From a virus, in IMG/VR virus record IMGVR_UViG_3300025898_000036, positions 1-23,502 of that record: 23,502 bases of DNA. The stretch is one strand, 5' to 3'. Both the position numbers and the translations under genes were made by a program. The notes beneath the pieces are model-generated. The model was not told the origin of the DNA. It made no database searches and worked only from the letters and a program-made list of their open reading frames with translations. Below are positions 2,778 through 20,878 of the stretch, piece after piece; position 1 is the first letter of the stretch; each line of letters begins with the position of its first letter.

Positions 2778-2920
2778 CCGTCAAGGAGGCCCTGGACTTC
2801 CTGGCGGTGATCTCCCGCCTCATGTGCGCCCTGCTGGGCCACTACTTTGCTCTTCCGCCGGGCGTCCTAGCCTTCACGCTCCCCGCCCGCTGCTGCAGGT
2901 GCGGTAAGCTGGTCGAGTGA
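2774..2920 (+). CDS. Cys-rich mini-protein, 48 aa
   Basis: GTG 2774 overlaps the previous stop (GTGA) and the TGA at 2918-2920 overlaps the next GTG at 2917. A hydrophobic helix (LDFLAVISRLMCALLGH) is followed by a C-terminal RCCRCGK. Cys18/His23 together with Cys40/Cys43 form a CX4H ... CX2C pattern typical of very small zinc-binding phage proteins. Function unknown. The length and double overlap argue it is a real cistron. Confidence 0.5.
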   Translation: MTVKEALDFLAVISRLMCALLGHYFALPPGVLAFTLPARCCRCGKLVE

Positions 2921-3189
2921 GCCAGAAGTACCCGCATCCCAAGGCGCGAGGGGGGCGCTACTGGGCCGACATGGTGGCTAGCGGTTTACGCGGCATGGTC
3001 GTACCGCCTCACTTCTTCGGCCTAGGCTGGCCCACATCGACCCGCCGTCGCTGGGCCCAACTGGTCGGGGTCAAGATGCGGCGAGAGCTGCCCCACCCGC
3101 GCCCATGGGAAGGACCGCGGTGGCCGTTCGAGGGCCTGTTCAGGACAACGGCAGAGCCCATGTTGACGTCGAGCTGGTTGGGTCCGTGA
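2917..3189 (+). CDS. Hypothetical protein directly upstream of the large terminase, 90 aa
   Basis: The product is basic and rich in Trp, Pro, Gly and Arg (GGRYWADMVASGLRGMVVPP, PTSTRRRWAQLVG), without a recognisable domain. It overlaps both neighbours by four bases (GTGA at each end), so it is probably translated in step with the terminase. Small proteins in this position sometimes take part in packaging, but nothing in the sequence shows that here. It could also be a weakly conserved ORF kept for coupling. Confidence 0.5.
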   Translation: MSQKYPHPKARGGRYWADMVASGLRGMVVPPHFFGLGWPTSTRRRWAQLVGVKMRRELPHPRPWEGPRWPFEGLFRTTAEPMLTSSWLGP

Positions 3190-4859: not shown

Positions 4860-4885
4860 ATTTACAGACAGTCCTCCATCAACCC

Positions 4886-4902
4886 GACGCCTGACCGGCG
4901 TC
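4886..4902 (+). other. Hairpin just upstream of the tRNA
   Basis: GACGCC-TGACC-GGCGTC is a 6-bp perfect stem with a 5-nt loop, 27 nt after the terminase stop and 2 nt before the tRNA acceptor stem. It has no T tract, so it is a poor intrinsic terminator; a processing signal for releasing the tRNA is possible. Confidence 0.4.
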
Positions 4903-4904
4903 AC

Positions 4905-4977
4905 TGCGGGGTGGGCCATCGGCCGGCCACCTGGCTCATAACCAGGTTTTAGGCGAGTTCGACTCTCGCCCCCGCAA
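4905..4977 (+). tRNA. tRNA with CAT anticodon (Met, or Ile if the C is modified)
   Basis: A full cloverleaf can be drawn: acceptor TGCGGGG (4905-4911) with CCCCGCA (4970-4976); D arm GGCC/GGCC with a 7-nt loop holding the GG pair; anticodon arm CCTGG/CCAGG with loop CTCATAA (anticodon CAT at 4937-4939); a 6-nt variable region; T arm GCGAG/CTCGC with loop TTCGACT; discriminator A4977. CCA is not encoded (CTG follows). The anticodon stem lacks the three G:C pairs of initiator tRNA, so it is elongator Met or the lysidine-modified Ile type. The D loop is short. It lies between terminase and portal, in the sense direction, so it is probably cut from the late transcript. Confidence 0.85.
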
Positions 4978-4979
4978 CT

Positions 4980-5052
4980 GGAGACGCCGCGGGAGTTCGC
5001 TTCGCGCCCGCGGCCGGGATGTGCGGGCCGCCCGTCCTTTCACCCCGTCTCC
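4980..5052 (+). ncRNA. Possible structured RNA closed by a 7-bp stem
   Basis: GGAGACG (4980-4986) pairs perfectly with CGTCTCC (5046-5052). Inside are CCGCGGG/CCCGCGG (4987-4993 with 5007-5013, 13-nt loop) and a small CGGG-CCG-CCCG hairpin (5024-5034), which together would make a three-way junction. Total length is 73 nt, tRNA-like in size, but no T arm or anticodon arm can be formed, so it is not a normal tRNA. It begins 2 nt after the tRNA's discriminator base. GC-rich DNA forms stems easily, so this is only a candidate. Confidence 0.35.
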
Positions 5053-5080
5053 CCGGGGTCAATCCGCATGGAGAGCCGGG

Positions 5081-5102
5081 ACCGCCAGCGGCATCTGGCG
5101 GG
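5081..5102 (+). other. Strong hairpin upstream of repeat copy 1
   Basis: ACCGCCAG-CGGCAT-CTGGCGGT is an 8-bp perfect stem with a 6-nt loop, flanked by GAGAG (5071-5075) and CTCTC (5112-5116), which could extend the stem across an internal loop. There is no T tract. It ends 20 nt before the first copy of the repeated 18-nt element. Confidence 0.4.
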
Positions 5103-5122
5103 TAGTTCCTCCTCTCGGGGAC

Positions 5123-5140
5123 ACCGGGCACAAATCCCGG
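5123..5140 (+). repeat. Module-boundary hairpin element, copy 1 (before the portal block)
   Basis: ACCGGGCACAAATCCCGG, identical in all four copies: stem CCGGG/CCCGG with 7-nt loop CACAAAT. Five bases (CACCT) separate it from ATG 5146, which opens a 10-codon ORF; the gene proper starts at GTG 5150 in the +1 frame. There is no Shine-Dalgarno for either start. The copy separates the packaging module from the portal module. Confidence 0.8.
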
Positions 5141-5145
5141 CACCT

Positions 5146-5178
5146 ATGAGTGCCGCCCACCGTCGTAGCCCTACCTGA
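5146..5178 (+). other. Short ORF of 10 codons at repeat copy 1
   Basis: ATG 5146, 5 nt after the hairpin, opens MSAAHRRSPT and stops at TGA 5176-5178, overlapping the start of the 111-aa gene in another frame. It is listed because its start is at the same distance from the repeat as at the other three copies. Whether it is translated is unknown. Confidence 0.25.
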
Positions 5179-5485
5179 CCCTGTTCAGCTGGCCGCGGTC
5201 CTGAAGGCGGCTCGCGAGAATGGCGTCACCCACCTGCGGGTCGGCACCTTCGAGTGCGACATGGCCCCCTTGGGCGTGGTCGAGGCGATCAACCGAGTGG
5301 CGCCGCTGCCGGCGGACCCCTTCGACACCATCCGCCAAGCTGCGGCCGGCGGCATTGGGGCGGCCGATGCGGCCCGCGCGCGCCAGGCGCAGGCACTGGC
5401 CGGTGGCGAGAGCCGGCCGGACATCCTGCAGGCCCTGGCGGACGGTGCCCGACTGGTGAACACGGGCGACCCCACCCAGGCGTAG
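5150..5485 (+). CDS. Hypothetical protein upstream of the portal, 111 aa
   Basis: The product starts MPPTVVALPDPVQLAAVLK. The first part has a helix then a strand-rich segment (GVTHLRVGTFECDMAP), a layout often seen in small uncharacterised proteins just before phage portal genes. The second half is Ala-rich and probably helical. No catalytic motif is visible. GTG 5150 is 9 nt after repeat copy 1 and lacks a Shine-Dalgarno, so its translation probably depends on that element or on the overlapping short ORF at 5146. It ends three bases before the portal start. Confidence 0.6.
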   Translation: MPPTVVALPDPVQLAAVLKAARENGVTHLRVGTFECDMAPLGVVEAINRVAPLPADPFDTIRQAAAGGIGAADAARARQAQALAGGESRPDILQALADGARLVNTGDPTQA

Positions 5486-5488
5486 CCC

Positions 5489-7393
5489 GTGAACCAGGAG
5501 ATCACCCAATGGACCACCGGGCGCTGGTGGGACTCTGACGAGGGATCCCTTCCGACCGCCCTGGCCGGCTGGGCCGCCTACCTCGAGAGCTTCGACTTCG
5601 AGCGGCGCACCAAGAATCTGGTGTACGCCCGTCTCGCCACCAACCGGGACCTTCCGAACATCTACGGGCTGGCCCTCACCCGCTCGTCGATCTCGGCCCT
5701 CGACTTCCGGGAGTGGAAGGCCCCCGTATTCAACGTGGTGGGGTCCTCGGTCGAGACCCTCACCAACAAGGTGGGGCGAAACAAGCCCTGGATCCTGTTC
5801 CTGACGGACGGCGGTGACTTCTCGGCCCGCATGACGGGCAAGAAGAAATCCCGCTTCATCGACGGGGTATGGCACGAGACCCAGACCTATCGCCTCTCCC
5901 GCCAGATGTTCACCGACGCCCTCACCTACGGGGACGGGTTCATCAAGGCCAGCCCAAGCGCGGACGGCAAGCGCATCGTCCATGACGTGATCTTGGGGGA
6001 CGAGCTCCTGGTGGACCCCTGGGACGCCCTCTACTTCGGGAAGTGGCCCCGGTCGCTGATCCACCGGACGTTCATGTCCAGAGGGGAGTTGCTGGCCATC
6101 TACGGGGACGACCCCGAGATGCGCATGGCCATCGAGACCGCCCCCGGCTCCTTCCAGGGCCCAATGTGGTTCGGGATGACGTCCTCCAGCCACACCAGCA
6201 TGGTGGCCGTGCTCGAGGGGTGGAAGCTGCCCGAGCCGGACGGGACTCCAGGCCGGCACGTGCTCACCATCTCCGACCGGATCGCCTTGGTGGACGAGAA
6301 GTACACCCGCAAGCGCTACCCGTTCGTGAAGCTGTCGTGCGTCTCGGCGGGGCGGGGCTTTTGGAACATCGGGATCCCGGAGATCCTCGGGTCCTTCCAG
6401 GCGAACATCAACAAGACGCAGCAGGTCATCGACCAGTGCCAGGATCGCATGGCCGCGGGCCGCTGGCTCGTCCCCACCGGATCTGGCGTCACGGACGACG
6501 CCCTGGGGCGCAAGGCCGCCGGGATCATCCGCCACCAGCCCGGCATGCCTCCCACGTTCATCACCCCCCAGGCGGTCCCGCCGGAGCTCTACCGGCACCT
6601 GGAGGACACGATCGAACGGGCCTACAAGCGGGTGGGGATCTCCGAGCTCGCCGCCCAGGCCATGAAGCCAGCCGGCCTCAACAGCGGGGAAGCCCTGCGC
6701 GCCTTCGAGTCAGCCGAGAGCGAGCGCTACGTCACCCTGGGGATGCAGCTGGAAGACGCCATGGTGGACCTGGCGGAGCTGGACCTCGAGCTGGCGGCGG
6801 CGATCCAGCCGCGGGTCAAGGCGCCATACCGGGGCGGGATCGACGTCATCGACTGGAACGACCTCAAGGGCCTCAAGGACGACAAGGCGATCTTGAAGGC
6901 CTTCCCGGTCTCCAGCCTCCCCACCTCCCCGGCGGGGCGTCTCCAGCGGGCGGCGGAGATGTTCCAGACGGGTCAGATCTCGAAGGACGATTACCTCCGC
7001 CTCATCGACTACCCCGACACGGATGCCGTGATCGAGCTGAACACCGCCAGCCGGGACGCCATCGATTGGATGCTGGATCGGATCGTCGAGGATGGAACCT
7101 ACGAGTGCCCCGAGCCCTACATGGATCTCAACATGGCCATGACGGTGGCGCAGAACCGCTACCTGCGGGAGCGGATCCAGGGGTGCCCCGAAGACCGGCT
7201 GGAAGACCTCCGCCGCTTCATGGAGTCGTGCAAGCAGCTGCAGGCCAAGGCCCAGGCGCCAGCGGCAGCGCCCCAGATCAACCCGGCCCAGGCCCAGGCG
7301 GCTGGCCTTCCCCCGCCCCAGGCCCCCGTCATCGGCACCCCCACCCCGGGCGGGCCGGAAGCAGGTACCAGCCAGATGCCCGTCGCGGCATAG
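5489..7393 (+). CDS. Portal protein, 634 aa
   Basis: The ring at the capsid vertex through which DNA enters and leaves and to which terminase and adaptor bind. It follows the terminase and precedes scaffold and capsid, the usual place. The central region (FQANINKTQQVIDQCQDRM, then ELYRHLEDTIERAYKRVGIS and ALRAFESAESERY) has the long helix, wing and crown-like pattern of podovirus-type portals, and the N-terminal part carries the expected Trp/Arg-rich segment. The last 70 residues are a Pro/Ala/Gln-rich flexible tail. The length is normal. GTG 5489 has no clear Shine-Dalgarno and starts 3 nt after the previous stop, suggesting coupling. Assigned by pattern and position, not by a database search. 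Confidence 0.85.
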   Translation: MNQEITQWTTGRWWDSDEGSLPTALAGWAAYLESFDFERRTKNLVYARLATNRDLPNIYGLALTRSSISALDFREWKAPVFNVVGSSVETLTNKVGRNKPWILFLTDGGDFSARMTGKKKSRFIDGVWHETQTYRLSRQMFTDALTYGDGFIKASPSADGKRIVHDVILGDELLVDPWDALYFGKWPRSLIHRTFMSRGELLAIYGDDPEMRMAIETAPGSFQGPMWFGMTSSSHTSMVAVLEGWKLPEPDGTPGRHVLTISDRIALVDEKYTRKRYPFVKLSCVSAGRGFWNIGIPEILGSFQANINKTQQVIDQCQDRMAAGRWLVPTGSGVTDDALGRKAAGIIRHQPGMPPTFITPQAVPPELYRHLEDTIERAYKRVGISELAAQAMKPAGLNSGEALRAFESAESERYVTLGMQLEDAMVDLAELDLELAAAIQPRVKAPYRGGIDVIDWNDLKGLKDDKAILKAFPVSSLPTSPAGRLQRAAEMFQTGQISKDDYLRLIDYPDTDAVIELNTASRDAIDWMLDRIVEDGTYECPEPYMDLNMAMTVAQNRYLRERIQGCPEDRLEDLRRFMESCKQLQAKAQAPAAAPQINPAQAQAAGLPPPQAPVIGTPTPGGPEAGTSQMPVAA

Positions 7394-7402
7394 GAGATCG
7401 TC

Positions 7403-7705
7403 ATGGACGAGAAGCTCAAGGAACGAGTCATCAGCGTGGTTCGGCAGGCTGTGCGGGATGCCCGATCGGGCGACTTCAAGCTGGAGGCCGCAGCCGTGCT
7501 CGAAGAGCTGACTGTGGGCACCTCCACCCTGGAATCTGCGGTGGTGGAGAAGGCTCTGGAGGCCGGCTTCGTCGGGGTCGGGTCCACGGCTGTCGTCCCG
7601 GGGGCCGATCTGCGGGCCAGCGTCCAGACCAGCACCGCAGCCGCGGAGACGAAGGCCTACCGCCGGGCCAACACCGGCAAGCGGGACGAAGGGGACGGCG
7701 AGTAG
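7403..7705 (+). CDS. Hypothetical protein between portal and scaffold, 100 aa
   Basis: ATG 7403 follows AGGAGA with good spacing; that ribosome binding site overlaps the portal's stop. The product begins with an amphipathic helix (MDEKLKERVISVVRQAVRD), continues as a mainly helical middle and ends in a disordered, charged tail (RRANTGKRDEGDGE). No family is recognised. Proteins of this size between portal and scaffold may be minor head or assembly proteins, but this is inferred from position only. Confidence 0.65.
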   Translation: MDEKLKERVISVVRQAVRDARSGDFKLEAAAVLEELTVGTSTLESAVVEKALEAGFVGVGSTAVVPGADLRASVQTSTAAAETKAYRRANTGKRDEGDGE

Positions 7706-7709
7706 GGCC

Positions 7710-7889
7710 ATGCCCCTCAAGCACGGGCCGGGAGCCGTCAGCTCCAACATCCGGGAGCTGTACCAGGCCAACGCGGACAAGCCGGCCGACAAGAAGCGGC
7801 CCCGCAAGCAGATCATCGCCATCGCCATGGCCGAAGCCCGAAAGAGCGGCGGTAAGCGCCCCCGGCTCAAGCACTACATCGCCCCGTAG
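7710..7889 (+). CDS. Small basic phage protein, DUF6496-like, 59 aa
   Basis: ATG 7710 starts MPLKHGPGAVSSNIRELY. The C-terminal half (KKRPRKQIIAIAMAEARKSGG) closely follows the R/K-K-Q-A-I-A-I-A-L/M-x-E-A-x-K-S pattern of a very common small protein family found beside phage structural genes (DUF6496-type). The family has no established role; strong positive charge suggests nucleic-acid binding. It follows the preceding stop by 4 nt, with only a weak AGGG as ribosome binding site. After its TAG come two stacked hairpins, including repeat copy 2, before the scaffold gene. Confidence 0.7.
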   Translation: MPLKHGPGAVSSNIRELYQANADKPADKKRPRKQIIAIAMAEARKSGGKRPRLKHYIAP

Positions 7890-7909: not shown

Positions 7910-7912
7910 GGA

Positions 7913-7930
7913 ACCGGGCACAAATCCCGG
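7913..7930 (+). repeat. Module-boundary hairpin element, copy 2 (before scaffold)
   Basis: Same 18-nt core as the other copies. Here the stem is longer: GGAACCGGG (7910-7918) pairs with CCCGGTTCC (7926-7934), nine perfect base pairs around the CACAAAT loop. TTCCT separates the core from GTG 7936, the scaffold start; because TTCC is in the stem, the start codon is 1 nt from the helix. No Shine-Dalgarno is present. Confidence 0.8.
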
Positions 7931-7935
7931 TTCCT

Positions 7936-9144
7936 GTGATGGACACCGGTTCCCAAGATGGCGGGGCCGTCACCACGACGGCAGGAAACGAACCAGGAGC
8001 AACGGAGGCAGGCGTTTCCGCCACCGCTGCGACCGAGGCCGCAGGCCAGACCGAGGGCGGCGCTACGGGCCAGCCAGGCGGCCAGGCGGAGGCGGGGTCT
8101 GCGGGCCCCAAGCTGACGACAGACCCCCTGAAGGAAGCCCTGGAGGGGACGGACCCCGGGGACGGGCAACCGCCGGCCGACGCGAGCGGCAAGCCAAGGG
8201 TCAACCTGACGGCCCGGCTGGCTCAGATCAGCGCCCAGCGCCGGCAGGAGAAAATCGCCGCTCGCCAGGCCCTGCAGGAGGCCTCCCAGGCCCGGCAGCA
8301 GGCCGAGGCCGCGGCGTCCGACTTCCAGGCCCTGGTGGCCAAGGCCAAGAACCCGGAGACTCGGGGCGAGGCGATCGACGAGCTGTACTCCCGGTTCGGG
8401 ATCTCGTTCGAGGCCATCGTGGACCACGAGGCCAAGCGGGACGCCCAGCTGACGCCGGAGCAGCGCGCGGCCAACGAGCTCGACGCCCTCAAGAAGCGCC
8501 TGGAGGACCAGGAGCGGCGCGCGGCGGATCGCGAGAAGCAGGAGGCCGAGCGGAACGCCCAGGCCATCCGGGCCTCCCACATCGCCGGGATCAAGGGCGA
8601 GATCGCCCGCCAGGCCGAGACCTACGAGCTCTGCGCCAGGAATCCCGACGAGGCGGCCGACGATGTGATCGCCACCGTGACCAAGGCCTGGGAGAAGGCC
8701 GGCAAGCCCAAGCTCGAACAGGGCGAGTTCGAGGAGGCGGTCCAGGAGGCCATCAAGGTCGTGGAACTCCGCCTCGAGCAGCGGGGCAAGGACGCCGTCA
8801 AACGGTACATGAAGGGCCAGGGCAAGACCCCGCCCGCGGCGGCGCCAGCGAACGGCGCGGCCAAGACGGACGGGGCCGCTCCCGCCGCCCGTTCCCCCAA
8901 GACTTCCGATCTACCCGAGGGATTCATCTCGGGTCAGCTGAGCGACAAGGACGAGGAATTGATCAGAGGGCTCATCGACAGAACGGCCCCCGCGGACACT
9001 TCGGCGCGAGCCAGGCCGCGGACGATCAGCAGCGAACTGGGAGGCGCGGCCCCGCCGCGAAGCCCGGTCAACGGCGCAATGGACCCACGTGACGCACTCA
9101 GGGAAGTCACGCAAGGTCTCGTCGGGCGAAACCCGGCCGCCTAA
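7936..9144 (+). CDS. Scaffolding protein (probable), 402 aa
   Basis: Directs capsid assembly and is then released. It lies immediately before the major capsid gene. Sequence features fit: a disordered Gly/Ala/Thr-rich N-terminus, a long charged helical centre (for example LDALKKRLEDQERRAADREK) with coiled-coil periodicity, and a further helical region ending in a basic segment (DAVKRYMKGQGKT) followed by a flexible end. Scaffold proteins share these properties rather than a catalytic motif. GTG 7936 and ATG 7939 are adjacent start codons; GTG keeps the fixed 5-nt spacing from repeat copy 2. No Shine-Dalgarno is seen, unusual for a protein needed in large amounts. Confidence 0.75.
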   Translation: MMDTGSQDGGAVTTTAGNEPGATEAGVSATAATEAAGQTEGGATGQPGGQAEAGSAGPKLTTDPLKEALEGTDPGDGQPPADASGKPRVNLTARLAQISAQRRQEKIAARQALQEASQARQQAEAAASDFQALVAKAKNPETRGEAIDELYSRFGISFEAIVDHEAKRDAQLTPEQRAANELDALKKRLEDQERRAADREKQEAERNAQAIRASHIAGIKGEIARQAETYELCARNPDEAADDVIATVTKAWEKAGKPKLEQGEFEEAVQEAIKVVELRLEQRGKDAVKRYMKGQGKTPPAAAPANGAAKTDGAAPAARSPKTSDLPEGFISGQLSDKDEELIRGLIDRTAPADTSARARPRTISSELGGAAPPRSPVNGAMDPRDALREVTQGLVGRNPAA

Positions 9145-9175
9145 CCCCTCGTTCACCTGAGAAGGAAGCCGCGCA

Positions 9176-10408
9176 ATGCTCGCGGATATCGTCGCCAACA
9201 TCGAGCCGATCTACAAGCAGTGGTACGCCAAGTCGTACGTCAACATGTTCTACCGCGACCGCCCCGCCATGGGGATGATCGCGAAAGAGCGCTCCGGCGG
9301 TGAGCAGGTCAAGCAGGCGATCAAGATCTCCCAGGGTCCTGGTCAGTCCGCCACCTTCACGAACGCCCTCACCAACGTGGGCCTGTCGGTCCGCCGGCCG
9401 TTCCTCGGGGACTGGGGCCTGGACTACTCCCTGGCCCAGGTCAACAACAGCCTGATCGAGCTGTCGGAGACCAACCAGGGAGCCATCGTCAAGGCCCTGG
9501 CCGACGAGACGGAGTCCGCGGTGGACGCCCTGGCGCAGCGGTTCGAGAAGGACTTGTTCCGCTCGGGCTACGGCGACCTCGGGGTGGTCTCGGCGGTCTC
9601 CACCACCACGGTCACCCTGACCCTGCGGGCGGACGCGCAGAACTTCTTCCCGGGTCAGGTGGTGGTCTCCTCGACGGCCGTCAACTCGGGCGTGCTCGAC
9701 AACTCCGGCGCCACCGCGGTGGTCTCGGCGGTCGATCGCGACGCGGGGACGGTCCTGAGCGCCACGAACTGGACGGCCCAGATCGCCGCCCTGGCCGCCA
9801 CCCACGTCCTGTTCCAGCAGGGCGACCGCACGTCGGCCGCGACTCCGGCTCCCCTCAAGGTGGTCGGGTTCTCGGGCTGGCTGCCGCTCACCGCCCCTAC
9901 CCCGGGTGACTCGTTCTTCGGGGTGGACCGGTCGCTGGACCCGGTCTCGCTGGCTGGCGTGCGCGTCTCGGGGATCGGCAAGCCGGTCTCCCAGGCGATC
10001 TACGACCTGGCCGTCCGCATCGGCGAGAACGGCGGGGCGCCGGATGTCTGCTTCGTGTCGTTCGACTCCTTCGGGAAGCTGACGACCGAGCTGGACAACC
10101 GGGCCATCTACGAGAACATCCAGGGCGCCGGGATCACGGTGAACTACGAGGCCGTGACGGTGGCGGGCCCCAAGGGCCGCATCCGGGTGTTCCCGGACAC
10201 CTACTGCCCCATGGACCGCTTGTTCGTGCTCACCAAGCGCGACTGGACGATCTACTGCGGCGGCGGGTCCAACCCGATGTACCCCTCCCTCAAGGGCGTC
10301 ACGATGCTGGACGTCTACAACGCGGACGCGGTGCAGATCCGCCACAAGACGCTGGCGCAGCTGATGTGCGCTGCCCCCGGCCACTCGGGGGTCTCGCAGC
10401 TCCAGTAA
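9176..10408 (+). CDS. Major capsid protein, 410 aa
   Basis: Forms the icosahedral shell. It follows the scaffold and has a strong ribosome binding site (GAAGGAAG, 7 nt before ATG 9176). The N-terminal helix segment (IEPIYKQWYAKSYVNMFY), the QGPGQSATFTNAL loop, a middle domain with many Thr/Val strands, and a late APDVCFVSFDSFGKLTTEL helix followed by PDTYCPMDRLFVLTKRDW fit the HK97-fold capsid proteins of podoviruses. A Val/Thr/Ser-rich stretch at about residues 140-220 may be an inserted beta domain on the capsid surface. A stem-loop terminator follows the stop codon, as often found after capsid genes. Confidence 0.88.
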   Translation: MLADIVANIEPIYKQWYAKSYVNMFYRDRPAMGMIAKERSGGEQVKQAIKISQGPGQSATFTNALTNVGLSVRRPFLGDWGLDYSLAQVNNSLIELSETNQGAIVKALADETESAVDALAQRFEKDLFRSGYGDLGVVSAVSTTTVTLTLRADAQNFFPGQVVVSSTAVNSGVLDNSGATAVVSAVDRDAGTVLSATNWTAQIAALAATHVLFQQGDRTSAATPAPLKVVGFSGWLPLTAPTPGDSFFGVDRSLDPVSLAGVRVSGIGKPVSQAIYDLAVRIGENGGAPDVCFVSFDSFGKLTTELDNRAIYENIQGAGITVNYEAVTVAGPKGRIRVFPDTYCPMDRLFVLTKRDWTIYCGGGSNPMYPSLKGVTMLDVYNADAVQIRHKTLAQLMCAAPGHSGVSQLQ

Positions 10409-10414
10409 GCGGTC

Positions 10415-10449
10415 GCGCGGGGCTGGGTGACTGGCCCCGCGCTTCCCTT
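10415..10449 (+). terminator. Probable leaky terminator after the capsid gene
   Basis: GCGCGGGGC (10415-10423) and GCCCCGCGC (10434-10442) form a 9-bp perfect GC stem with a 10-nt loop, followed by TTCCCTT. It lies 6 nt after the capsid stop. The weak T tract suggests partial termination, giving more capsid mRNA than downstream mRNA. Confidence 0.6.
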
Positions 10450-10475
10450 GCCTGCGACTCACAAGGAGAACGCAC

Positions 10476-10886
10476 ATGAGCAACATGAAGGTCTGGGAAG
10501 AGCGCGGATCGTCGGCCACCGGCATCGAGCGCCTCTTCCTGCGCATCCCGATCGGCGCCACCGGTGCTCCCGGGACGGCGATCCAGTCGTGGGGCTTCGG
10601 CGCCACGCCGCTCACGCGCACCGGGGTCGGCGTCTACACCGTCAACCTCGGGCACGCCTATCCGGCCACCACGTCCCTCCGTTCCTACACGGCCAACACC
10701 GTGCAGAGCACGGTCACGGCCGGGGACGGGGTCATGGGGGTCATCACGGCGGAGGCATACAACCAGGCCACTCCGACGCTCACTCTGACCATGATCTCCA
10801 GCAACACCGGAGTCGCGGCGGAGATCGCAAACGGGGCCACGCTCCTCATGGAGCTGGTGTTCAAGAACACCGCCGTCAACCCCTAA
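10476..10886 (+). CDS. Probable capsid decoration or minor head protein, 136 aa
   Basis: ATG 10476 follows AAGGAG with ideal spacing. The product is rich in Thr, Gly, Ala and Val and shows repeated strand-like segments (GVGVYTVNLGHAYPATTS, SYTANTVQSTVTAGDGV, TPTLTLTMISSNTG), so a small beta-sandwich is likely; only the first 20 residues look different. A small beta protein directly after the major capsid gene with a strong ribosome binding site is the usual profile of a head decoration protein. This is inference from position and composition; no family motif was recognised. Confidence 0.55.
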   Translation: MSNMKVWEERGSSATGIERLFLRIPIGATGAPGTAIQSWGFGATPLTRTGVGVYTVNLGHAYPATTSLRSYTANTVQSTVTAGDGVMGVITAEAYNQATPTLTLTMISSNTGVAAEIANGATLLMELVFKNTAVNP

Positions 10887-10895
10887 GGAGCGGCC

Positions 10896-11207
10896 ATGCT
10901 GACCAGCAAGGAACGCAAGCCGCTCTCGGTCCTAATCGCGATGGACGCCGCGAAGCTGCACCCCCATTCGGAGCACGACGAGCCGGACGGGGACGAAGGC
11001 GACGCGGAGCCCGACCCGCGGCACGAAGATGAGGACATGCTGCAGGCGTGCCAGGACGAGATCGACGCCTACCGCAAGGGCGACGCTCAAGCCCTGAACG
11101 CAGCCAAGATCGCCTGGTGCAAGCTGTACGCCTCCAAGGAGCCCGACGAAGAGAAGGGCGAAGGGGAGTACGGCGGCAGCGGCGAGGGTGGCGAAGAGGA
11201 GTCGTAA
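10896..11207 (+). CDS. Acidic hypothetical protein, 103 aa
   Basis: ATG 10896 follows AAGGAG, which overlaps the preceding stop codon. After a short basic start (MLTSKERKPLSVLIAMD) the product is extremely acidic (HDEPDGDEGDAEPDPRHEDED), has one helical segment in the middle (LNAAKIAWCKLYASK) and ends in Gly/Glu repeats. Such charge suggests a disordered DNA-mimic or assembly helper, but no function can be assigned. It lies between the decoration-like protein and the head-tail adaptor, so a role in head completion is possible. Confidence 0.65.
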   Translation: MLTSKERKPLSVLIAMDAAKLHPHSEHDEPDGDEGDAEPDPRHEDEDMLQACQDEIDAYRKGDAQALNAAKIAWCKLYASKEPDEEKGEGEYGGSGEGGEEES

Positions 11208-11213
11208 CAGGTT

Positions 11214-11280
11214 CGGAGGCCCCGGCCACCCGAGTTGACGCCATCTCTCGGACGTCGGGGCCTCCGGTTCTTTCGGAGGC
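11214..11280 (+). promoter_or_regulatory. Two mutually exclusive hairpins before the adaptor gene
   Basis: Segment A CGGAGGCCCCG (11214-11224) is complementary over 11 bases to segment B CGGGGCCTCCG (11256-11266). B also pairs with segment C CGGAGGC (11274-11280) through GCCTCCG, with 7-nt loop GTTCTTT. C contains the GGAGG ribosome binding site for GTG 11284. A:B pairing frees the site and, with GTTCTTT after it, resembles a terminator stem; B:C pairing hides the site. Confidence 0.5.
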
Positions 11281-11283
11281 AAC

Positions 11284-11988
11284 GTGTCTCATACCCTCGC
11301 TCAGCTCCGCGCCTCCGCCCAGCAGCGGGCCAACCAGGAGAACAAGACCCTGGTTTCCACCTCCGAGTGGAACGAGTACGTCAATCTCGCCATCTCGGAG
11401 CTCTACGACCTCATCGTCGCGACGAATCCGCACTTCTACGTCAGCTCCTCCGCGTTCACGCTGTCGTCGTCGAACCTCTTCGACCTGACGACGCTCTCCC
11501 CGGTTTTCTACAAGATGCGGGGGGTGGACAACACCACCGGCGGATCCAGCCAGCCGGTTTCGGTCCGCCCGCTCAACTTCCAGGAGCGCAACCGGTACCA
11601 GCCGATCAACTACCAGGGCACCTACGTGATCTGGTACACCCCCGTTCCTCCCGTGCTGGTGGCCGACGGGGACACCCTGGACATCATCCTCGACGTCTGG
11701 TCGGAGTTCATCACGGTCCACGCGGCCATTGCGGGGGCCATCAAGGAAGAATCGGCCGCCCTGGCCACCAACCTCTCGACGGTGCTCCGGGGCACAGACG
11801 GCAACGGCGGGATCGTCGGCCGCATCAACAAGGCGGCCAGCAACCGGGACGGCGAGGCGGGGCAGGCGGCCGATCTCATGTTCGGCGCCGGCTACGCCTA
11901 CCCCTGGGCCGGCGGCGGGGCCTTTCGCTACATGCTGGAGGGCACCAAGCTCACGCTGCTCGGCACCGACGCCATGCTGTGGGGTTAG
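11284..11988 (+). CDS. Head-tail adaptor (tail tubular A-like), 234 aa
   Basis: Adaptor proteins form a ring under the portal and connect it to the tail nozzle. The N-terminus (LAQLRASAQQRANQENKTLVS then WNEYVNLAISELYDLIV) has the helical pattern typical of podovirus adaptors, followed by a Ser/Thr/Phe-rich strand region, an NTTGGSSQPVSVRPLNFQERN loop region and a second helical half (WSEFITVHAAIAGAIKEESA). Length and its position before a 981-aa nozzle-like protein both fit. GTG 11284 is 4 nt after GGAGG; this site can be hidden in the hairpin described at 11214-11280. Only 3 nt separate it from the next gene. Confidence 0.75.
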   Translation: MSHTLAQLRASAQQRANQENKTLVSTSEWNEYVNLAISELYDLIVATNPHFYVSSSAFTLSSSNLFDLTTLSPVFYKMRGVDNTTGGSSQPVSVRPLNFQERNRYQPINYQGTYVIWYTPVPPVLVADGDTLDIILDVWSEFITVHAAIAGAIKEESAALATNLSTVLRGTDGNGGIVGRINKAASNRDGEAGQAADLMFGAGYAYPWAGGGAFRYMLEGTKLTLLGTDAMLWG

Positions 11989-11991
11989 CCG

Positions 11992-14937
11992 ATGCTCGGC
12001 CCTGACAAGCGCGTCGTCCCAATCCTGCTCCAGGGCCTCGACCAGAAGCAGCCCAGGCAGGCGGGCGGCTCGGGGGTCCTGCAGTCCCTCACCAACATGG
12101 TGGTCTCGAAGGCCGCCCAGGGGGGATACGAGTTCGTCCCTCGTCCCGGCTCGGCCAGCGTATCCAAGACCGCCGACACCGGCTCCATCACCACCGGCCA
12201 GCGCCTAGGTGTACTGGGCCAGCAGCTCCTCCTCCTCACCGGGACGTCCGCCTACCGGAAGGCCACCGACAAGTGGCACCTAGTGGACGCTACGGCCCCC
12301 ACCTTCGGGGTGCAGACGAGCCCGATGGTGTCGAACTCCACGGCCGCCTACAGCGCCGGCTCTGTCTACGCCAACGGCTATCGGGTGAGCGCGGCGATCG
12401 TGCTGGCTGTGAGCGGGCGCCAGCTCCTGGTCAGCATCTCCGATGCCTCCGGCGTGGTGGTGACGTCGGCCGTGGTCGCCACCGGCGCCGCCCTCTCCGC
12501 CGTGCGGGTGGTTGCCTGCGGGAACAACGTGGTGGTGGTGTGGCAGCAGGCGACGCTCAGCCTGATGGCCGTCAAGGTCGACACGACCGTCCCCGGCACC
12601 ATCTCAGGACCCACCACGATCTCGTCGACCGCAGCCGTGGGAGTATCGGCTGCCGATGTGCAGGCCGTGGGCAACTCCCCGACCCAGGTCGCCATCGCCT
12701 ACCTCTCCAGCTCCACCAGCACCTGGCACCTGCGCCTGCTCACTCCCTCGAGCATGACCCTGGGGACCGACGTCGACACGACGATCGCCGGCGTGCCCGC
12801 CTTCAGCTTCCTGGCCAACGACTGGAGCACGTCGGAGCTCTTCGTGGGCTGGGGCGGGGGCGGAGCCGGGCTTTCCGTGACGAAGTTCAACGCCAGCACC
12901 CTGGCCACGGTCGGAACGTCGTCCTACGACCCGGCGATCACTTTCGTGAACAGCATCACCGGCACCCGGGCCGGCTCCAGTGTCGTGCTCCTCGCCACCA
13001 CCACCCCGGACGGGACGATCGCCACCGCCAGCGCCCCCGCCTACGACATCCGGGTGGTGAAGAGCACCGGGGGCGCCGTCACCGACCTCATGCGGTCGGT
13101 CTCCCTGGCCTCGAAGGCCATCGCCGCCAACGGGACGGTCTACGTCATGGTGCTCTACGGCGGCCCTCTCCAGGGGACGCTGTTCCTGGTGGACGCGGGG
13201 GCCAAGAAGCTGGTCGGCAAGGCGCTGCCGGACGTGGCCGGGGTGGCGGGGATGATCCCCAACAACGAGCTGCCCGAGCTGGCAACCACCGGCAACGCCA
13301 GCACCTGGCTGACGGCCGCGATCAACGTCATCGCCGACACCTCCACGGTCGGATCGACCGGGGCTTACACGGGCGCGGTGTCGCTGACCTGGACGCTGGA
13401 GGACAGCACCGTGGACCGGCCGGTGGAACTCAACGGCCTGCACATCCCCGGGGCCCTGCCCTGCTTCTACGATGGCCAGGTGGTGGTGGAGGATGGCTTC
13501 CCGATAGCTCCCGAGCAGGCGGACACGCCGGTGACGGCAGCACCGGGGTCCAAGACCGCCGGGGCCTTCTACATCTACCGCTACTGCTACGCCTGGCCCG
13601 ACGCTCTCGGGAACCTCCACCGCTCGGCACCGTCGATCATCGGCCAGAAGGTCACGCTGGGCGGCTCTGACCACGAGGTGACCCTGGCGATCCCTACCCT
13701 GCGCGCCACCCGGCGGACCAACGTGACGGTGGAGATCTACGAGACCCCCGTCAACGGCGACGGGACGGTCTACTACCTCATCGGGTCGGTGCTCAACAAC
13801 CCGGCCGTGGATCGGGTGACCTTCACCGACAGTGGTGTCGATGCCGACATCGTGGGCGGAGAGCCGCTCTACACGAACGGCGGGATCCTCGACAACATCG
13901 CCCCTCCGCCCTGTAAGACCATGGCGAAGCATCGGGGCCGCCTGCTCATCGGTGGGGTGGACAACGACCCGCAGGCCGTGTGGTTCTCCAAGAACGTGGG
14001 CCCCGGCTTCGGGGTGTCCTTCTCGGATGGTCTCGTCTCCCGGCTCAACCAGACAACCGAGATGGTCACCGCTCTCGGCTCCATGGACGCCTACGCCGTG
14101 GCCTTCACCGCCGGTACCACCTGGGCGAGCGGCAACGACTACCCCGACGACACCGGACAGCAGGGCGTCCTCTCCTTCCAGCAGTACAGCGAGTCGACGG
14201 GGGTCGCGCGCGCGGGCCTGGCTGGGCGGACCGACCAGGGGATGCTCGTCTATGCCAGCAACCCGAAGGGGGCCTGGCGGCTCTCTCGCGGAGTGACCTA
14301 CGACTACGTGGGATCCGCGATCGAAGACGACATGGCCACGGTTAGCCCGGTGGCGGTGATCGCTGTGGGCGGCTTCAACCAGGTCCGCTTCGTGGCTGGG
14401 ACCACGGTACTCGTCTACGAGACGCTCTATGGGACCTGGGCCACCTGGACCTACGCCCACACCCCGGCGCCGTTTGTGGACGCGACCGTGTGGCAGGGGC
14501 AAGTGGCGTACCTGTGCTCGGACGGGACGGTGGTGCTGGAGAGTCAGGCCGTCCTGGACGACAACGGCCTGCCAGATTCGGTCCAGCACGTGGTGGCCTT
14601 CGCCGGCTTCAACTTCGCCGGGATCGCCGGCTTCGCGCGCCTCTTTGGGACCCAGCTCACCGGGAGGCTCTTCGGCGTGGCCGGCTTCACGATGACCTTC
14701 ACCCAGGCCTTCGATGGCGTCAGCATCCCCAACAAGGCCATGGTCTACACCGGGGCCGAGGCGGCGCTCAACGTCGAGGTGGATCCCGGGCCATCGGGGA
14801 AGTGCTCGACTTACACGCTGACGATCTCCGACTCCGCCAACGGGGCCAACTCGGGGTTCTCGCTGGTGGCCATCACCGCCCTCATCGGGATCGAGGCCGG
14901 ATTGGCCAAGCTTCCCCCCGCCCGCCGCGCCACGTAG
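11992..14937 (+). CDS. Tail nozzle / stabilisation protein (tail tubular B-like), 981 aa
   Basis: The N-terminus (VVPILLQGLDQKQPRQ, then LTNMVVSKAAQGGYEFVPRPG) matches the characteristic start of the large tail proteins that close the portal-adaptor channel in short-tailed phages, where a beta strand, a conserved Gly/Asn loop and an xRPG motif occur early. The remainder is a long succession of Thr/Val/Ser/Gly-rich strands, consistent with the beta-propeller and beta-sandwich make-up of such nozzles. Later segments (CKTMAKHRGRLLIGGVDNDPQAVWFSK and EMVTALGSMDAYAVAFTAG) look like propeller blades. The last gene of the head-tail block; repeat copy 3 starts 3 nt after its stop. Assigned by pattern and position. 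Confidence 0.78.
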   Translation: MLGPDKRVVPILLQGLDQKQPRQAGGSGVLQSLTNMVVSKAAQGGYEFVPRPGSASVSKTADTGSITTGQRLGVLGQQLLLLTGTSAYRKATDKWHLVDATAPTFGVQTSPMVSNSTAAYSAGSVYANGYRVSAAIVLAVSGRQLLVSISDASGVVVTSAVVATGAALSAVRVVACGNNVVVVWQQATLSLMAVKVDTTVPGTISGPTTISSTAAVGVSAADVQAVGNSPTQVAIAYLSSSTSTWHLRLLTPSSMTLGTDVDTTIAGVPAFSFLANDWSTSELFVGWGGGGAGLSVTKFNASTLATVGTSSYDPAITFVNSITGTRAGSSVVLLATTTPDGTIATASAPAYDIRVVKSTGGAVTDLMRSVSLASKAIAANGTVYVMVLYGGPLQGTLFLVDAGAKKLVGKALPDVAGVAGMIPNNELPELATTGNASTWLTAAINVIADTSTVGSTGAYTGAVSLTWTLEDSTVDRPVELNGLHIPGALPCFYDGQVVVEDGFPIAPEQADTPVTAAPGSKTAGAFYIYRYCYAWPDALGNLHRSAPSIIGQKVTLGGSDHEVTLAIPTLRATRRTNVTVEIYETPVNGDGTVYYLIGSVLNNPAVDRVTFTDSGVDADIVGGEPLYTNGGILDNIAPPPCKTMAKHRGRLLIGGVDNDPQAVWFSKNVGPGFGVSFSDGLVSRLNQTTEMVTALGSMDAYAVAFTAGTTWASGNDYPDDTGQQGVLSFQQYSESTGVARAGLAGRTDQGMLVYASNPKGAWRLSRGVTYDYVGSAIEDDMATVSPVAVIAVGGFNQVRFVAGTTVLVYETLYGTWATWTYAHTPAPFVDATVWQGQVAYLCSDGTVVLESQAVLDDNGLPDSVQHVVAFAGFNFAGIAGFARLFGTQLTGRLFGVAGFTMTFTQAFDGVSIPNKAMVYTGAEAALNVEVDPGPSGKCSTYTLTISDSANGANSGFSLVAITALIGIEAGLAKLPPARRAT

Positions 14938-14940
14938 CGC

Positions 14941-14958
14941 ACCGGGCACAAATCCCGG
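14941..14958 (+). repeat. Module-boundary hairpin element, copy 3 (before the ejection block)
   Basis: Identical 18-nt core. A small GCGC-CACGTA-GCGC hairpin (14927-14940), which includes the previous stop codon, abuts it on the 5' side. Five bases (TTCCG) separate the core from TTG 14964, which opens a 10-codon ORF; the real gene starts at ATG 14971 in the +1 frame. No Shine-Dalgarno is present. Confidence 0.8.
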
Positions 14959-14963: not shown

Positions 14964-14996
14964 TTGAGCGATGAGCTGGACCGATTACCTGGTTGA
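14964..14996 (+). other. Short ORF of 10 codons at repeat copy 3
   Basis: TTG 14964 opens MSDELDRLPG and stops at TGA 14994-14996. It overlaps the start of the following gene in another frame. As at copy 1 it has exactly ten sense codons and lies one frame behind the real gene. No evidence of translation other than the conserved distance from the repeat. Confidence 0.22.
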
Positions 14997-16305
14997 CTCC
15001 ACGGGCATCGGAGCCGCGGGGTGGCTCTACGGCAAGGCCACCGGACAGTCCAACCCCGTCACCGCCGCCTTCAACCAGATCAACCCGTTCTCCCAGCCCT
15101 CCACGGCCGGTGTTCAGCAGGCGGCGACCGACGCCCAGAACATCCAGAACCAATTCTTGGGCCAGTATTCGGCCCTTCAGCCCGGCCAGGCGCCCACGAT
15201 GTCCGCCGCGCAGCTATCGTCCGCCCAGGCCGCCGCCGCCAACCCGGTAGCCGCGCAGCAGATGCAGGCCGCCCAGCTCAACGCCGCGCAGAGCGCCCAG
15301 GACCGCGCCTCCCAGCTGGCCCTGGCCGGTTCCCTCCAGGGAACGATCAACGGTACGGCCCCCAGCGTGGCCCAGCAGCAGCAGGCCCTCATGTTCCAGC
15401 AGCTGGCCGCCCAGCAGGCGGGACAGGCCGCCGCCGCCGGCCGCGGGGGTAACCAGGCCTTGGCCGCGCGCACGGCCGCCCAGAACATGGCCCAGCTCGG
15501 AGGACAGGCCGGCGCCCAGGCCGCGCTCCTGCGCGCCCAGGAGGTCCAGGGGGCCCAGGGGCAGCTGGGGGGGCTGCTCTCCAACGTCTCGGGCCAGGAT
15601 CTCTCCCTGGCCGCCCAGAACGCCCAGCTTGCCCAGCAGGCCGGCCTCACCAACGCCCAGCTCGGGCAACAGGCCGCCTTCCAGAACCAGGCGAACCAGC
15701 AGGCGGTCAACCTCCAGAACGCCCAGAACGCCCAGGCCTCGCTCTCCCAGAACGCCCAGCAGCAGCAGCAGGCCAACGCGGCGAACCAGGCGGCCCAGCT
15801 CCAGACGACCAACCAGTACATCCAGCAGCAGCAGAACCTGGGAAGCCTGGCCAACACCGCCAACTCCAACCAGGTCAACGCCCAGGTGGGGGCCCTGAAC
15901 GCCCTCAACCAGCAGAAGCAGAACTCCAACAACCTGCTCTCCACCGGGATCTCCGCTGCCGCTCTGTCCGACCGGGAGGCCAAGACGGACATCCACCCCC
16001 TGGACTCGTCCGCCTTCGACGAGATGGCCTCCCAGATCCAACCCGCCACCTGGCGCTACAGGAACGCGCCTGCGGGCTCCGGGCGCCTGCCGGGGGCCAT
16101 TGCCCAGGATGTGCAGAAAAGCCGCCTGGGCGCGATGCTGGTGCGCGAGACGCCGTCCGGCAAGGCCATCGACCTCCCCAGCACGACCAACGCCCTCCTG
16201 GCCATGGTCTCGGACCTCTCCAGGCGGGTCCAGGCCGTGGAGGGTAAGGGTCCGCCTGAGGTGCGCAGGCCCCAGCCAACGGCGGCCGGCCGAAAGGCCG
16301 CGTGA
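14971..16305 (+). CDS. Ala/Gln-rich virion protein with C-terminal peptidase S74 chaperone domain, 444 aa
   Basis: Residues about 40-325 are low-complexity helix made largely of Ala, Gln and Asn, with recurrent NAQ and QQA units, like a phage ejection or pilot protein. The C-terminal part begins LSDREAKTDIHPL and continues ATWRYRN, a match to the intramolecular chaperone (peptidase S74) that trimerises a protein and then cuts itself off; Ser333 and Lys338 form the expected S-D-x3-K dyad. The end carries a leucine-rich helix (NALLAMVSDLSRRVQAVEG), as usual for the domain. S74 normally ends tail spikes and fibres, so its place at the head of the ejection block is notable. ATG 14971 is used; an in-frame TGA lies two codons upstream. 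Confidence 0.75.
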   Translation: MSWTDYLVDSTGIGAAGWLYGKATGQSNPVTAAFNQINPFSQPSTAGVQQAATDAQNIQNQFLGQYSALQPGQAPTMSAAQLSSAQAAAANPVAAQQMQAAQLNAAQSAQDRASQLALAGSLQGTINGTAPSVAQQQQALMFQQLAAQQAGQAAAAGRGGNQALAARTAAQNMAQLGGQAGAQAALLRAQEVQGAQGQLGGLLSNVSGQDLSLAAQNAQLAQQAGLTNAQLGQQAAFQNQANQQAVNLQNAQNAQASLSQNAQQQQQANAANQAAQLQTTNQYIQQQQNLGSLANTANSNQVNAQVGALNALNQQKQNSNNLLSTGISAAALSDREAKTDIHPLDSSAFDEMASQIQPATWRYRNAPAGSGRLPGAIAQDVQKSRLGAMLVRETPSGKAIDLPSTTNALLAMVSDLSRRVQAVEGKGPPEVRRPQPTAAGRKAA

Positions 16306-18281
16306 GCCCCCAGGCCGAGCCCCTCTTCGACGATCTCGACGAGGAGACCCCTGTGGTGGCCCCCACGGTCGAGGAGGGAGGGTCAGCCCTGCCCGCGGGC
16401 ACCGATGTCCCGGGCGGCCAGCTGACGCCCGAACAGCTCATGGCCGCCGCCACGGGCGCCTCGAGTCCCCAGGGCGACGCCGTGGACAGGCTGTTGGCGG
16501 CCAACCCGGATGCCGCCGGCTCCCAGGCCCCGCTTCTCCCCGGCGCCGCGCCCGTTGGCCCCGGCGCCCCCGGCGCGGTACCCTCGGCCCTGCCGGGGGC
16601 TGCCGCGGGTCCCGTGGCCAATGGCCCAGTGGTCCCCCCAGGATCGCCCGTGGCGGCCCCCGGCTCTCCGCAGGCGGCGGAAACGGCCCTCATCCCCGGG
16701 ATGAACGCCAACGCCATCCAGGGAGAGGACGCTCTGCGCCGGGAAGGTGCGGCAAAGGTGGGCATGGCGCAGGCGGACGCGGATGCCGCGCGCGCCGCGG
16801 CCCCGATCCTCGAGCAGGCAGCCCAGGACCAGACCCAGATCGTCGAACAGGGGAACCGGGCCACCCAGGCCTGGATGGACAAGGCCCAGCAGTACACCCA
16901 GCAGTACCAGCAGCTCGGATACCATGACTTCTGGGCGGACAAGGGCACCGGCAACAAGGTGCTGGCCGGGATCGCCATGCTCTTCGGGGCGAACACCGGA
17001 CGGGCGGAGAACCCTGGGCTTCAGATCATCAACCAGGCCATCGATCGCGACTTCCGCCAGCAGCAGGCGGCGATCGAGAAGGCTGGCAAGAATGCGGAGA
17101 TGGCCCAGGGCCAGGCCCGCTTCGGCCTCTCGGTCACCCAGGAGCGCTTGGCCCAGAACGAGCTCAAGAAGGCCGCCGCGCTGGACGCCGCGGCCGGCAA
17201 GGCGCTGTCCCTCAAGCTCCAGCAGGGCGTCCCGCTTGCTCAGGCCCAGAACGACCAGGCGATCGTGGCCCTCCGCCAGCAGGCGGCCCAGACCCGCATG
17301 GGAGTCTTCCAGGCCGTCCACAAGCAGAACATGGAGGACGCCAAGCTCGCGATCGACCAGGAGCGGGCCGACGCCCTCATGCTCAGGGCCCAGAAGTACA
17401 AAGGCAAGGGAGCGGGCGGGGCGGGCGGTGGGCGCGCTCCGGCGTATCAGAAGTTCGTGGACGCGATCGGGCAGGTGCCCCCCGGACAGCCGGTGCCGGG
17501 CTCGGTCGCGGCGCTCGGGATTCAGGCTGGGATCAAGCCGGGACAAATTGGGGCCGAGATCGATCGCATCCGCGAGTCTTCGGCCAAGCTCGCCAAGCTG
17601 AGCGGCGCCGGGGGTGGAACCGGTGCTGGAAGCGTTCGCCAGAACGCCGTCCTTGGGAACTTGGCCGAGGCGGAGAAGGCCGCGAAGGACATCAAGGTGG
17701 GTGGGGTCTCCCCGGAGACGATCGCCAAGCTCCAGTCCAACGAGGAGCGCGCCCACGCGGCCCACCACGCCGCAGAGAGCGGAGCCCTGGGATCCCTGAC
17801 TGCCGGGGCCATGCGCACGTTCGGGATCGCCCCCCGCGGCCGATATGACGGCATTCCCGAGGAAGAGCAGAAGCGAATCACCGCCGCCGAGCAGGTGATC
17901 ACCCACCTCACGGAGATGCAGCAGGGGAAGAACATCGAGACGCTCGAGCAGTACCGAGAGCGGTACTCCCCCTACATCCCCGGCTTGTCCCCTGAGGAGG
18001 TGCGGCGCCGGGAGAAGGCCCTCCCGGGCCTGGTGGCGGAACAGCGGGCCATCCAGGATCCCCAGGGGGTTGGCACCAAGCGCCAGGCCGCCGCAGGCGA
18101 GGGGAGCGACGTCGCAAAGAAGATCGCGGCAAAGGTCAAGGCATCCCAGGATGTCCTGAATGACCCCAAGAAGTCCGCACTGTTGGCTCCGCTGGAGCGA
18201 GCCAAGCTCATGAAGTTCGTTCGCGAGAACAAGCCTCCGGCCTCGAACGGCATGAGCCCAATGAACGACCTGACGCTCTAG
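16302..18281 (+). CDS. Probable ejection (internal virion) protein, 659 aa
   Basis: GTG 16302 overlaps the previous TGA (GTGA). The first 130 residues are disordered and Pro/Ala/Gly-rich. Then comes a long helical region rich in Ala, Gln and Lys, interrupted by a hydrophobic segment (VLAGIAMLFGAN, around residues 219-230) that could insert in a membrane. A second part, after a Gly-rich hinge (GKGAGGAGGG), is again helical. Long helical proteins with a single apolar patch, placed between tail nozzle and receptor-binding genes, are typical of proteins ejected with DNA to build a channel through the cell envelope. No lytic transglycosylase motif was seen. Function is inferred. Confidence 0.6.
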   Translation: MSPQAEPLFDDLDEETPVVAPTVEEGGSALPAGTDVPGGQLTPEQLMAAATGASSPQGDAVDRLLAANPDAAGSQAPLLPGAAPVGPGAPGAVPSALPGAAAGPVANGPVVPPGSPVAAPGSPQAAETALIPGMNANAIQGEDALRREGAAKVGMAQADADAARAAAPILEQAAQDQTQIVEQGNRATQAWMDKAQQYTQQYQQLGYHDFWADKGTGNKVLAGIAMLFGANTGRAENPGLQIINQAIDRDFRQQQAAIEKAGKNAEMAQGQARFGLSVTQERLAQNELKKAAALDAAAGKALSLKLQQGVPLAQAQNDQAIVALRQQAAQTRMGVFQAVHKQNMEDAKLAIDQERADALMLRAQKYKGKGAGGAGGGRAPAYQKFVDAIGQVPPGQPVPGSVAALGIQAGIKPGQIGAEIDRIRESSAKLAKLSGAGGGTGAGSVRQNAVLGNLAEAEKAAKDIKVGGVSPETIAKLQSNEERAHAAHHAAESGALGSLTAGAMRTFGIAPRGRYDGIPEEEQKRITAAEQVITHLTEMQQGKNIETLEQYRERYSPYIPGLSPEEVRRREKALPGLVAEQRAIQDPQGVGTKRQAAAGEGSDVAKKIAAKVKASQDVLNDPKKSALLAPLERAKLMKFVRENKPPASNGMSPMNDLTL

Positions 18282-20860: not shown

Positions 20861-20878
20861 ACCGGGCACAAATCCCGG
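20861..20878 (+). repeat. Module-boundary hairpin element, copy 4 (before the adsorption block)
   Basis: Identical 18-nt core, 2 nt after the previous stop. Five bases (ATTTT) separate it from GTG 20884, which opens a 12-codon basic ORF ending just before the next gene. No Shine-Dalgarno lies between element and GTG. This copy separates the ejection proteins from the receptor-binding proteins. Confidence 0.8.

Follow-up and report, generated by a model that had tools for sequence, protein, structure and literature searches.

A candidate leaky terminator at the boundary of head and adaptor genes in an uncultivated phage

In the virus record of 23,502 bases analysed here (hereafter the window), a long hairpin fills most of the spacer before a predicted head-tail adaptor gene, and its 3' arm could also pair with the Shine-Dalgarno sequence of this gene. 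This raises the question whether the hairpin serves to terminate transcription between the head genes and the low-copy adaptor, whether it is one state of an RNA switch that additionally controls translation, or whether it has another purpose. The preliminary description of the locus had favored the switch, in which segment B pairs either with segment A, forming a terminator and leaving the ribosome site free, or with segment C, abolishing the terminator and covering the site. All three segments are present on the plus strand, and C indeed holds the GGAGG that precedes the GTG start codon (Table 1). Our analyses indicate that the element is probably a leaky hairpin of the intrinsic-terminator type that separates the minor head genes from the adaptor gene.

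Table 1. Positions of genes and predicted RNA elements around the adaptor-side hairpin (window coordinates).
Feature	Position	Strand	Remarks
Major capsid gene, 410 aa	9176-10408	+	Weak matches to SU10_MCP and to PHROG major head protein
Second terminator-like hairpin, between capsid gene and next gene	10415-10442	+	12 pairs, 4-nt loop, tail TTCCCTT
Gene for 136-aa protein, between both hairpins	10476-10886	+	Same place in all seven capsid-related loci
Upstream gene, 103 aa	10896-11207	+	Stop codon TAA 11205-11207, 5 nt before stem
A arm, 5' side of terminator-like stem	11213-11226	+	Holds CGGAGGC 11214-11220
Inner stem-loop within 27-nt loop	11230-11251	+	11230-11234 pairs with 11247-11251 (5 bp)
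B arm, 3' side of stem	11254-11267	+	Holds GCCTCCG 11260-11266
T-rich tail TTCTTT	11268-11273	+	Directly 3' of stem
C segment CGGAGGC	11274-11280	+	Contains Shine-Dalgarno GGAGG of adaptor gene, 11275-11279
Head-tail adaptor gene, 234 aa	11284-11988	+	GTG start; SU10-adaptor-like fold
D segment GCCTCCG, fourth copy	11311-11317	+	In adaptor coding region; can pair with C

Gene order and identity of the adaptor

The genes in this part of the window are arranged in the order capsid, 136-aa protein, 103-aa protein, hairpin and adaptor, followed by a gene for a 981-aa protein. The 234-aa protein scored 19.2 bits against PF24175 (SU10_adaptor; E 0.0018), which is below the cut-off of 27, and the portal and capsid proteins of the window likewise reached scores below the cut-off to SU10_portal and SU10_MCP. 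In the three relatives scanned for PF24175, two distant and one close, L020 gave 50.5 bits and L041 and L001 no match. A structural model of the 234-aa protein, derived from an alignment of 49 sequences (pLDDT 83.6), retrieved four chains at E ≤0.001 with Foldseek. They come from portal-tail complexes (cyanophage A4, phage GP4) and from the SU10 tail (7z47_B, E 3.5e-05, TM 0.54; 7z47_A, E 2e-04; TM about 0.55, 12% identity). The sequence of 7z47_A is that of SU10 gp11, the chain is named 'Adaptor protein', and gp11 is called the adaptor in the SU10 structure paper (PMC9509320). Because the predicted fold matches this chain, the name head-tail adaptor is sound as far as fold and gene order are concerned, and the same two lines of evidence confirm that the hairpin lies between head genes and adaptor gene.

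Close relatives were found through the capsid protein, for which both the initial search and the alignment search returned the same seven loci. Five of them are distinct for the present purpose, since L001 equals L002 and L005 equals L006 in the spacer, and the capsids of the distinct close relatives show 82-85% identity. According to tblastn, the capsid gene, the 136-aa gene, the adaptor gene and the 981-aa gene are kept in all seven loci and the 103-aa gene in six, the exception being L003, where a 91-aa ORF occupies that place. L003 also carries about 500 additional bases (6692-7211) between the adaptor gene and the homologue of the 981-aa gene. A first adaptor alignment yielded nine loci, including the distant L016 and L017, whose adaptor genes leave no space for a hairpin in front of them. 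No match was obtained in the annotated phage collection for DNA 8000-14000, the adaptor or the capsid, in viral contigs with a single-sequence scan for the adaptor or with the 981-aa gene, or in bacterial genomes with the capsid alignment.

The hairpin in the window and in related loci

The preliminary description had correctly recognized the pairing of A with B, but its 11 base pairs were too few, as the stem consists of 14 contiguous pairs with one G-U pair among them. For the region 11200-11310 a minimum free energy (MFE) of -47.8 kcal/mol was calculated (z -2.86), which was equalled by none of 200 dinucleotide shuffles, so that the hairpin possesses the stable, GC-rich stem expected for an intrinsic (Rho-independent) terminator. 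The tail is less typical, as the 8 nt that follow the stem include five T but no T run longer than three. Because the loop comprises 27 nt, the hairpin was missed by two terminator scans, a simple one limited to loops of 3-8 nt and a strict one limited to loops of up to 10 nt. Only 16 nt separate the stem from the GTG start codon, leaving no room for a promoter. A scan of 9000-13500 detected no sigma-70-like site, which says little because only 0.3 sites were expected by chance and the scan was confined to this promoter type.

In all five distinct close relatives, the same spacer contains a hairpin of 11-23 pairs with a different sequence. Covariation could be read between L004 and L005 only, because MAFFT did not align the six spacers well enough to count pairs; these two loci differ at four stem pairs, each of which can still form, and show no differences outside the pairs. 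Over the six members of the clade, which are not independent of each other, 23 of 48 positions in the 8 nt after the stem are T, at a background frequency of 0.157. Individual tails are weak, with three T out of eight in L005 and a single T out of eight in L007, which argues against a terminator. In the strict scan, L003 alone of the window's clade passed, while the other members have long loops or weak tails.

An adaptor alignment that included the distant L016 gave 195 matches, the best 80 of which were evaluated. After dropping L002 (identical to L001), L008 (the window itself) and L009-L015 and L017-L019 (same records or copies), 86 sequences including the window were left. L024 was dropped as well (no start in the record), and removing adaptor genes more than 90% alike reduced the 85 loci to 70. 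The gene caller had misjudged some spacers, namely those of the window (a spurious GTG), L005 (later corrected by homology) and L016 (start called one codon early). Among these 70 non-redundant loci from the best 80 of 195 matches, the spacer before the adaptor gene measures 25-150 nt in 32 cases and less than 25 nt in another 32, and in six no upstream gene was called within 150 nt. Folding at z -2 or lower, relative to mononucleotide shuffles, was predicted for 25 of the 32 spacers of 25-150 nt within the same best 80 of 195.

Several loci, e.g. L020, L031, L040, L060 and L088, carry textbook terminators with T tracts before the adaptor gene. The strict scan found a hairpin plus T tract within 100 nt upstream of the adaptor gene in 18 of the 70 loci (best 80 of 195 matches), whereas the frequency of such hits on this strand in the remainder of the same loci predicts 1.9; this enrichment of about nine times was obtained with thresholds chosen after a looser scan, which had detected 19 of 70 loci, about 2.9 times the rate elsewhere. 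Against the terminator reading, strict hits over the whole loci of this set, drawn from the best 80 of 195, were hardly rarer on the opposite strand (144) than on the adaptor-gene strand (160). On an adaptor tree constructed with a quick method, 11 changes are required to explain the distribution of the hairpin, and at least four if well-supported branches alone are counted. The 29 hairpin rows of this tree were labelled by eye and represent 27 loci plus SU10 and phiEco32, a different set from the 29 loci of the pairing tests below; L039 and L048 were scored as lacking a hairpin. These observations suggest that the adaptor-side signal comes and goes within the family.

The very stable stems and the short or poor T tails of the GC-rich clade, the poorest being that of L007, would also suit a hairpin that stabilizes or marks the end of the capsid messenger after cleavage by an RNase, with little termination. 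However, relatives of lower GC content that are more distant carry T tracts downstream of the stem at this position, and because a protector of 3' ends needs none, these tracts speak against a purely protective or processing function, which we consider rather unlikely.

Alternative pairing of the B arm

Pairing of B with C exists in the window as the preliminary description had claimed, with seven Watson-Crick pairs, or eight if a G-U pair is counted, so that the sequence permits both pairings. In the free ensemble of 11200-11319 its probability is 0.00025, corresponding to a cost of 5.1 kcal/mol, and it did not exceed 0.0003 at any of the nine 3' ends tried between 11290 and 11450. It had also been proposed that the A:B form exposes the ribosome site. 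This was contradicted by the model, in which the GGAGG is mostly paired at all nine 3' ends (mean unpaired fraction 0.00-0.14), predominantly with the start region 11281-11300 and, when the fold ends at 11319, with the D segment. Thus, in the model the first of the two states would not leave the site free.

The switch was not dismissed outright because a ribosome positioned at the stop codon of the 103-aa gene would have a footprint reaching to about 11217-11219. Such a ribosome might perhaps act as trigger by hiding part of the A arm. Hiding the first 10 nt after the stop codon gave B:C a probability of 0.94 in the fold ending at 11319, compared with 0.001 when nothing was hidden. However, the effect varied with the chosen 3' end: with A hidden to 11217, B:C probabilities ranged from 0.04 to 1.00 over six 3' ends, and with A hidden to 11219 they were at least 0.93 in all six. 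The resemblance between the A arm and the tail was analyzed with shuffled sequences. A shuffled A arm shared at least 7 nt with the tail in 0.4% of trials and at least 9 nt, as in the observed TTCGGAGGC repeat, in 0.02%. When the A arm was kept and the tail was shuffled around a kept GGAGG, a match of at least 7 nt arose in 32% of trials.

The pairing tests in relatives were carried out with 29 hairpin-bearing loci, as no hairpin was obtained for L028 and L032, which are among the 32 loci with spacers of 25-150 nt, and that of L036 is weak. Picking of the arms was imperfect in four of them: the stem swallowed the tail in L052, L085 and L089, and the inner part of the stem was chosen in L084, for which reason the 6-nt run of L084 is doubtful. 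B:C pairing of each locus with its own tail was compared to pairing with the tails of other loci, with P values derived from duplex energy and from the Watson-Crick run and with GC content uncontrolled. For all 29 loci, B:C pairing was above expectation (P 0.013 by energy, 0.007 by run; an initial version of the test, with 27 loci, gave 0.002 and 0.022). The values were P 0.036 and 0.031 when the window was left out, 0.059 and 0.006 when the L080 group was collapsed, 0.15 and 0.019 when both were done, and 0.10 and 0.14 for the 23 distant loci (energy first in each case).

Folds with the bases behind the upstream stop codon masked were compared in the same way. In six of the 23 loci with a Shine-Dalgarno-like stretch (the window, L040, L080, L083, L091 and L094) the probability of B:C exceeded 0.5, and L033 (0.50) and L060 (0.48) came near this value, which is in favor of a switch. 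Relative to swapped tails, however, the six loci observed compare to 4.9 expected (P 0.34 for the count, 0.05 for the mean over 23 loci). The corresponding P values were 0.55 and 0.15 after collapsing related loci, and for the mean 0.44 when the window was omitted in addition. Moreover, two of the five close relatives, L001 and L007, have no Shine-Dalgarno-like stretch of at least 3 nt in the tail, and that of L003 is limited to TAA. To judge from the sequences, the B:C excess is at most a weak tendency, as expected where purine-rich arms meet purine-rich ribosome sites, and the match between A arm and Shine-Dalgarno sequence that makes B:C pairing possible is most likely incidental.

A two-state switch requires that both pairings are conserved, as the preliminary description itself had laid down. 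Seven Watson-Crick pairs between B and C were reached by the window alone among the 29 hairpin-bearing loci (best 80 of 195 matches), and the close relatives keep one pairing, the A:B hairpin. By this standard the reading as a switch fails, and we regard it as very unlikely. Attenuators and riboswitches can cover a ribosome site by alternative pairing, and the A/B/C arrangement of the window as drawn resembles them; in contrast to such elements, its alternative pairing is not kept in relatives. In 10350-11450 no Rfam family reached its gathering score, and the single match, on the opposite strand, scored 18.4 bits against the 70 required. A purine-rich terminator arm can evidently imitate a Shine-Dalgarno site and thereby hint at a switch that finds little support in relatives.

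Similarly, we consider it highly improbable that a relay gated by ribosomes operates at this locus, in which the ribosome ending the 103-aa gene would hide the start of A, free part of B to cover the adaptor site and shorten the terminator stem. If this were true, each terminating ribosome would raise readthrough yet delay translation of the adaptor. Such a mechanism would be peculiar to this phage, although L040 and the L080 group might offer a parallel. That the hairpin is a chance structure in GC-rich DNA is hardly credible, for while an MFE this low or lower was found in 14 of the 1233 76-nt windows sampled elsewhere, A:B is the longest uninterrupted stem in the whole window (scan allowing loops of 3-30 nt), and all six clade members have a hairpin in this spacer despite diverged sequence.

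Known and predicted terminators at the head-adaptor boundary and further elements of the window

A comparable arrangement is found in phage SU10, whose record (KM044272) has a terminator annotated at 8934-8970, between gp10 and gp11. It consists of a hairpin followed by TTTTTT, and the same hairpin is present in phiEco32, where the record has no annotation. In the SU10 genome description, possible terminators between CDS 10 and 11 and between CDS 5 and 6 are software predictions checked by eye, and the late-promoter motif also occurs between CDS 10 and 11 (PMC4281155). As in the window, a hairpin followed by T is situated between the adaptor gene, here gp11, and a small gene behind the capsid gene. 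The two loci differ in the tail, which is TTCTTT in the window, in the number of small genes between capsid and adaptor, which is one (gp10) in SU10 and two in the window, and in the spacer, which in SU10 has 101 nt with the late-promoter motif TAATGTATA behind the hairpin, whereas the window offers no space for it. The adaptors of SU10 and the window are far apart in sequence.

Phage T7, in which gene 11 encodes the adaptor, provides a second parallel. There, the terminator Tphi follows capsid gene 10 as the sole terminator of the phage polymerase, and the downstream genes 11 and 12 are expressed by readthrough only (PMC5592923). Tphi differs from the hairpin described here in that it acts on the single-subunit T7 polymerase; PF00940 had no match in the 13 records searched, nor in any control genome. 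Because the predicted SU10 terminator and Tphi occupy the equivalent place, the window hairpin is, in the best reading of the sequence, probably a signal of the same kind as these terminators at the head-adaptor boundary. In this respect the preliminary description has held up well, as synteny, the clear terminators of distant relatives and the predicted SU10 terminator all lend good support to a terminator-like element that could set head genes against a low-copy adaptor.

RNA polymerase coming from the capsid gene would encounter the GC-rich stem with its short T-rich tail, where part of the transcripts would end or stall, while the remaining ones would continue into the adaptor gene and from there into the downstream gene for the 981-aa protein. 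Thereby, head proteins would come to outnumber adaptor and tail proteins. Termination at the hairpin, which we infer from its structure and position, would probably be partial because the tail is short and interrupted. By analogy to T7, transcripts of the adaptor gene likely originate from readthrough, and from this an influence on the ratio of head to adaptor proteins can be inferred. Leaky termination would offer a simple account of head-to-tail protein ratios within one gene run, and the findings suggest that, among uncultivated phages, those with SU10-like heads share with T7 and SU10 a layout with a stop signal between head and adaptor genes.

The capsid gene of the window is followed by a terminator-like hairpin of its own (Table 1), and the spacer that holds it folds at z -3.3, with one of 200 shuffles being as good. 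Such signals appear to be more common behind the capsid gene than before the adaptor gene: in the 65 loci with placed capsid and adaptor genes (best 80 of 195 matches), the strict scan detected a terminator in the 150 nt behind the capsid gene in 47, of which 17 also have one before the adaptor gene and 30 do not. Of the other loci in this set from the best 80 of 195, one has the adaptor-side terminator alone and 17 have neither. Four of the five close relatives are among these 17 by the strict scan, yet L001, L004 and L005 have strong stems at this position. With hairpins on both the capsid and the adaptor side, expression along the gene run may therefore step down twice, from the capsid gene to the genes for the 136- and 103-aa proteins and from these to the adaptor and tail genes.

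A 17-base hairpin motif, CCGGGCACAAATCCCGG, occurs in four exact copies on the plus strand of the window (5124-5140, 7914-7930, 14942-14958 and 20862-20878), when 0.2 matches with up to three mismatches are expected by chance. It forms a 5-bp stem with the loop CACAAAT, extended to 8 bp at 7911, and its copies are embedded in 29-nt repeats that are 79-86% alike to the first. Two copies lie 3-4 nt behind stop codons (14937 and 20858), and ORFs start shortly after each copy, at 5150, 7936, 14971 and 20935. The motif is far from the adaptor gene, and in the loci of the adaptor survey sites with three mismatches were found in L005 and L006 only. Among viral contigs, eight loci hold CCGGGCACAAATCCCGG, including L106 and L107, which are near-copies of the window with 99.3-99.7% identity over about 3186-7720 and 2216-7485 that end before the adaptor spacer. 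CCGGGCACAAATCCCGG may be a phage promoter, an operator or an RNA element; if it marks promoters, the adaptor gene would lack one of its own, in agreement with expression by readthrough.

Some further features were noticed in the course of the analysis. The window contains a tRNA-Met (CAT) gene at 4905-4978, between the terminase and portal genes. At both ends of a relative's record, G003 (L111, 3-327, and L113, 11529-11805), a 13-mer recurs every 24 bases in 14 and 12 copies, respectively, and these are perhaps terminal repeats. The strongest predicted structure among the sampled 76-nt windows falls at 16531-16670, in the Pro/Gly/Ala-rich part of a 659-aa gene, and is probably due to composition. 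The 444-aa protein encoded at 14971-16305 has a Peptidase_S74 (chaperone of endosialidase) domain in residues 333-383, a domain that occurs in tail spikes and fibres.
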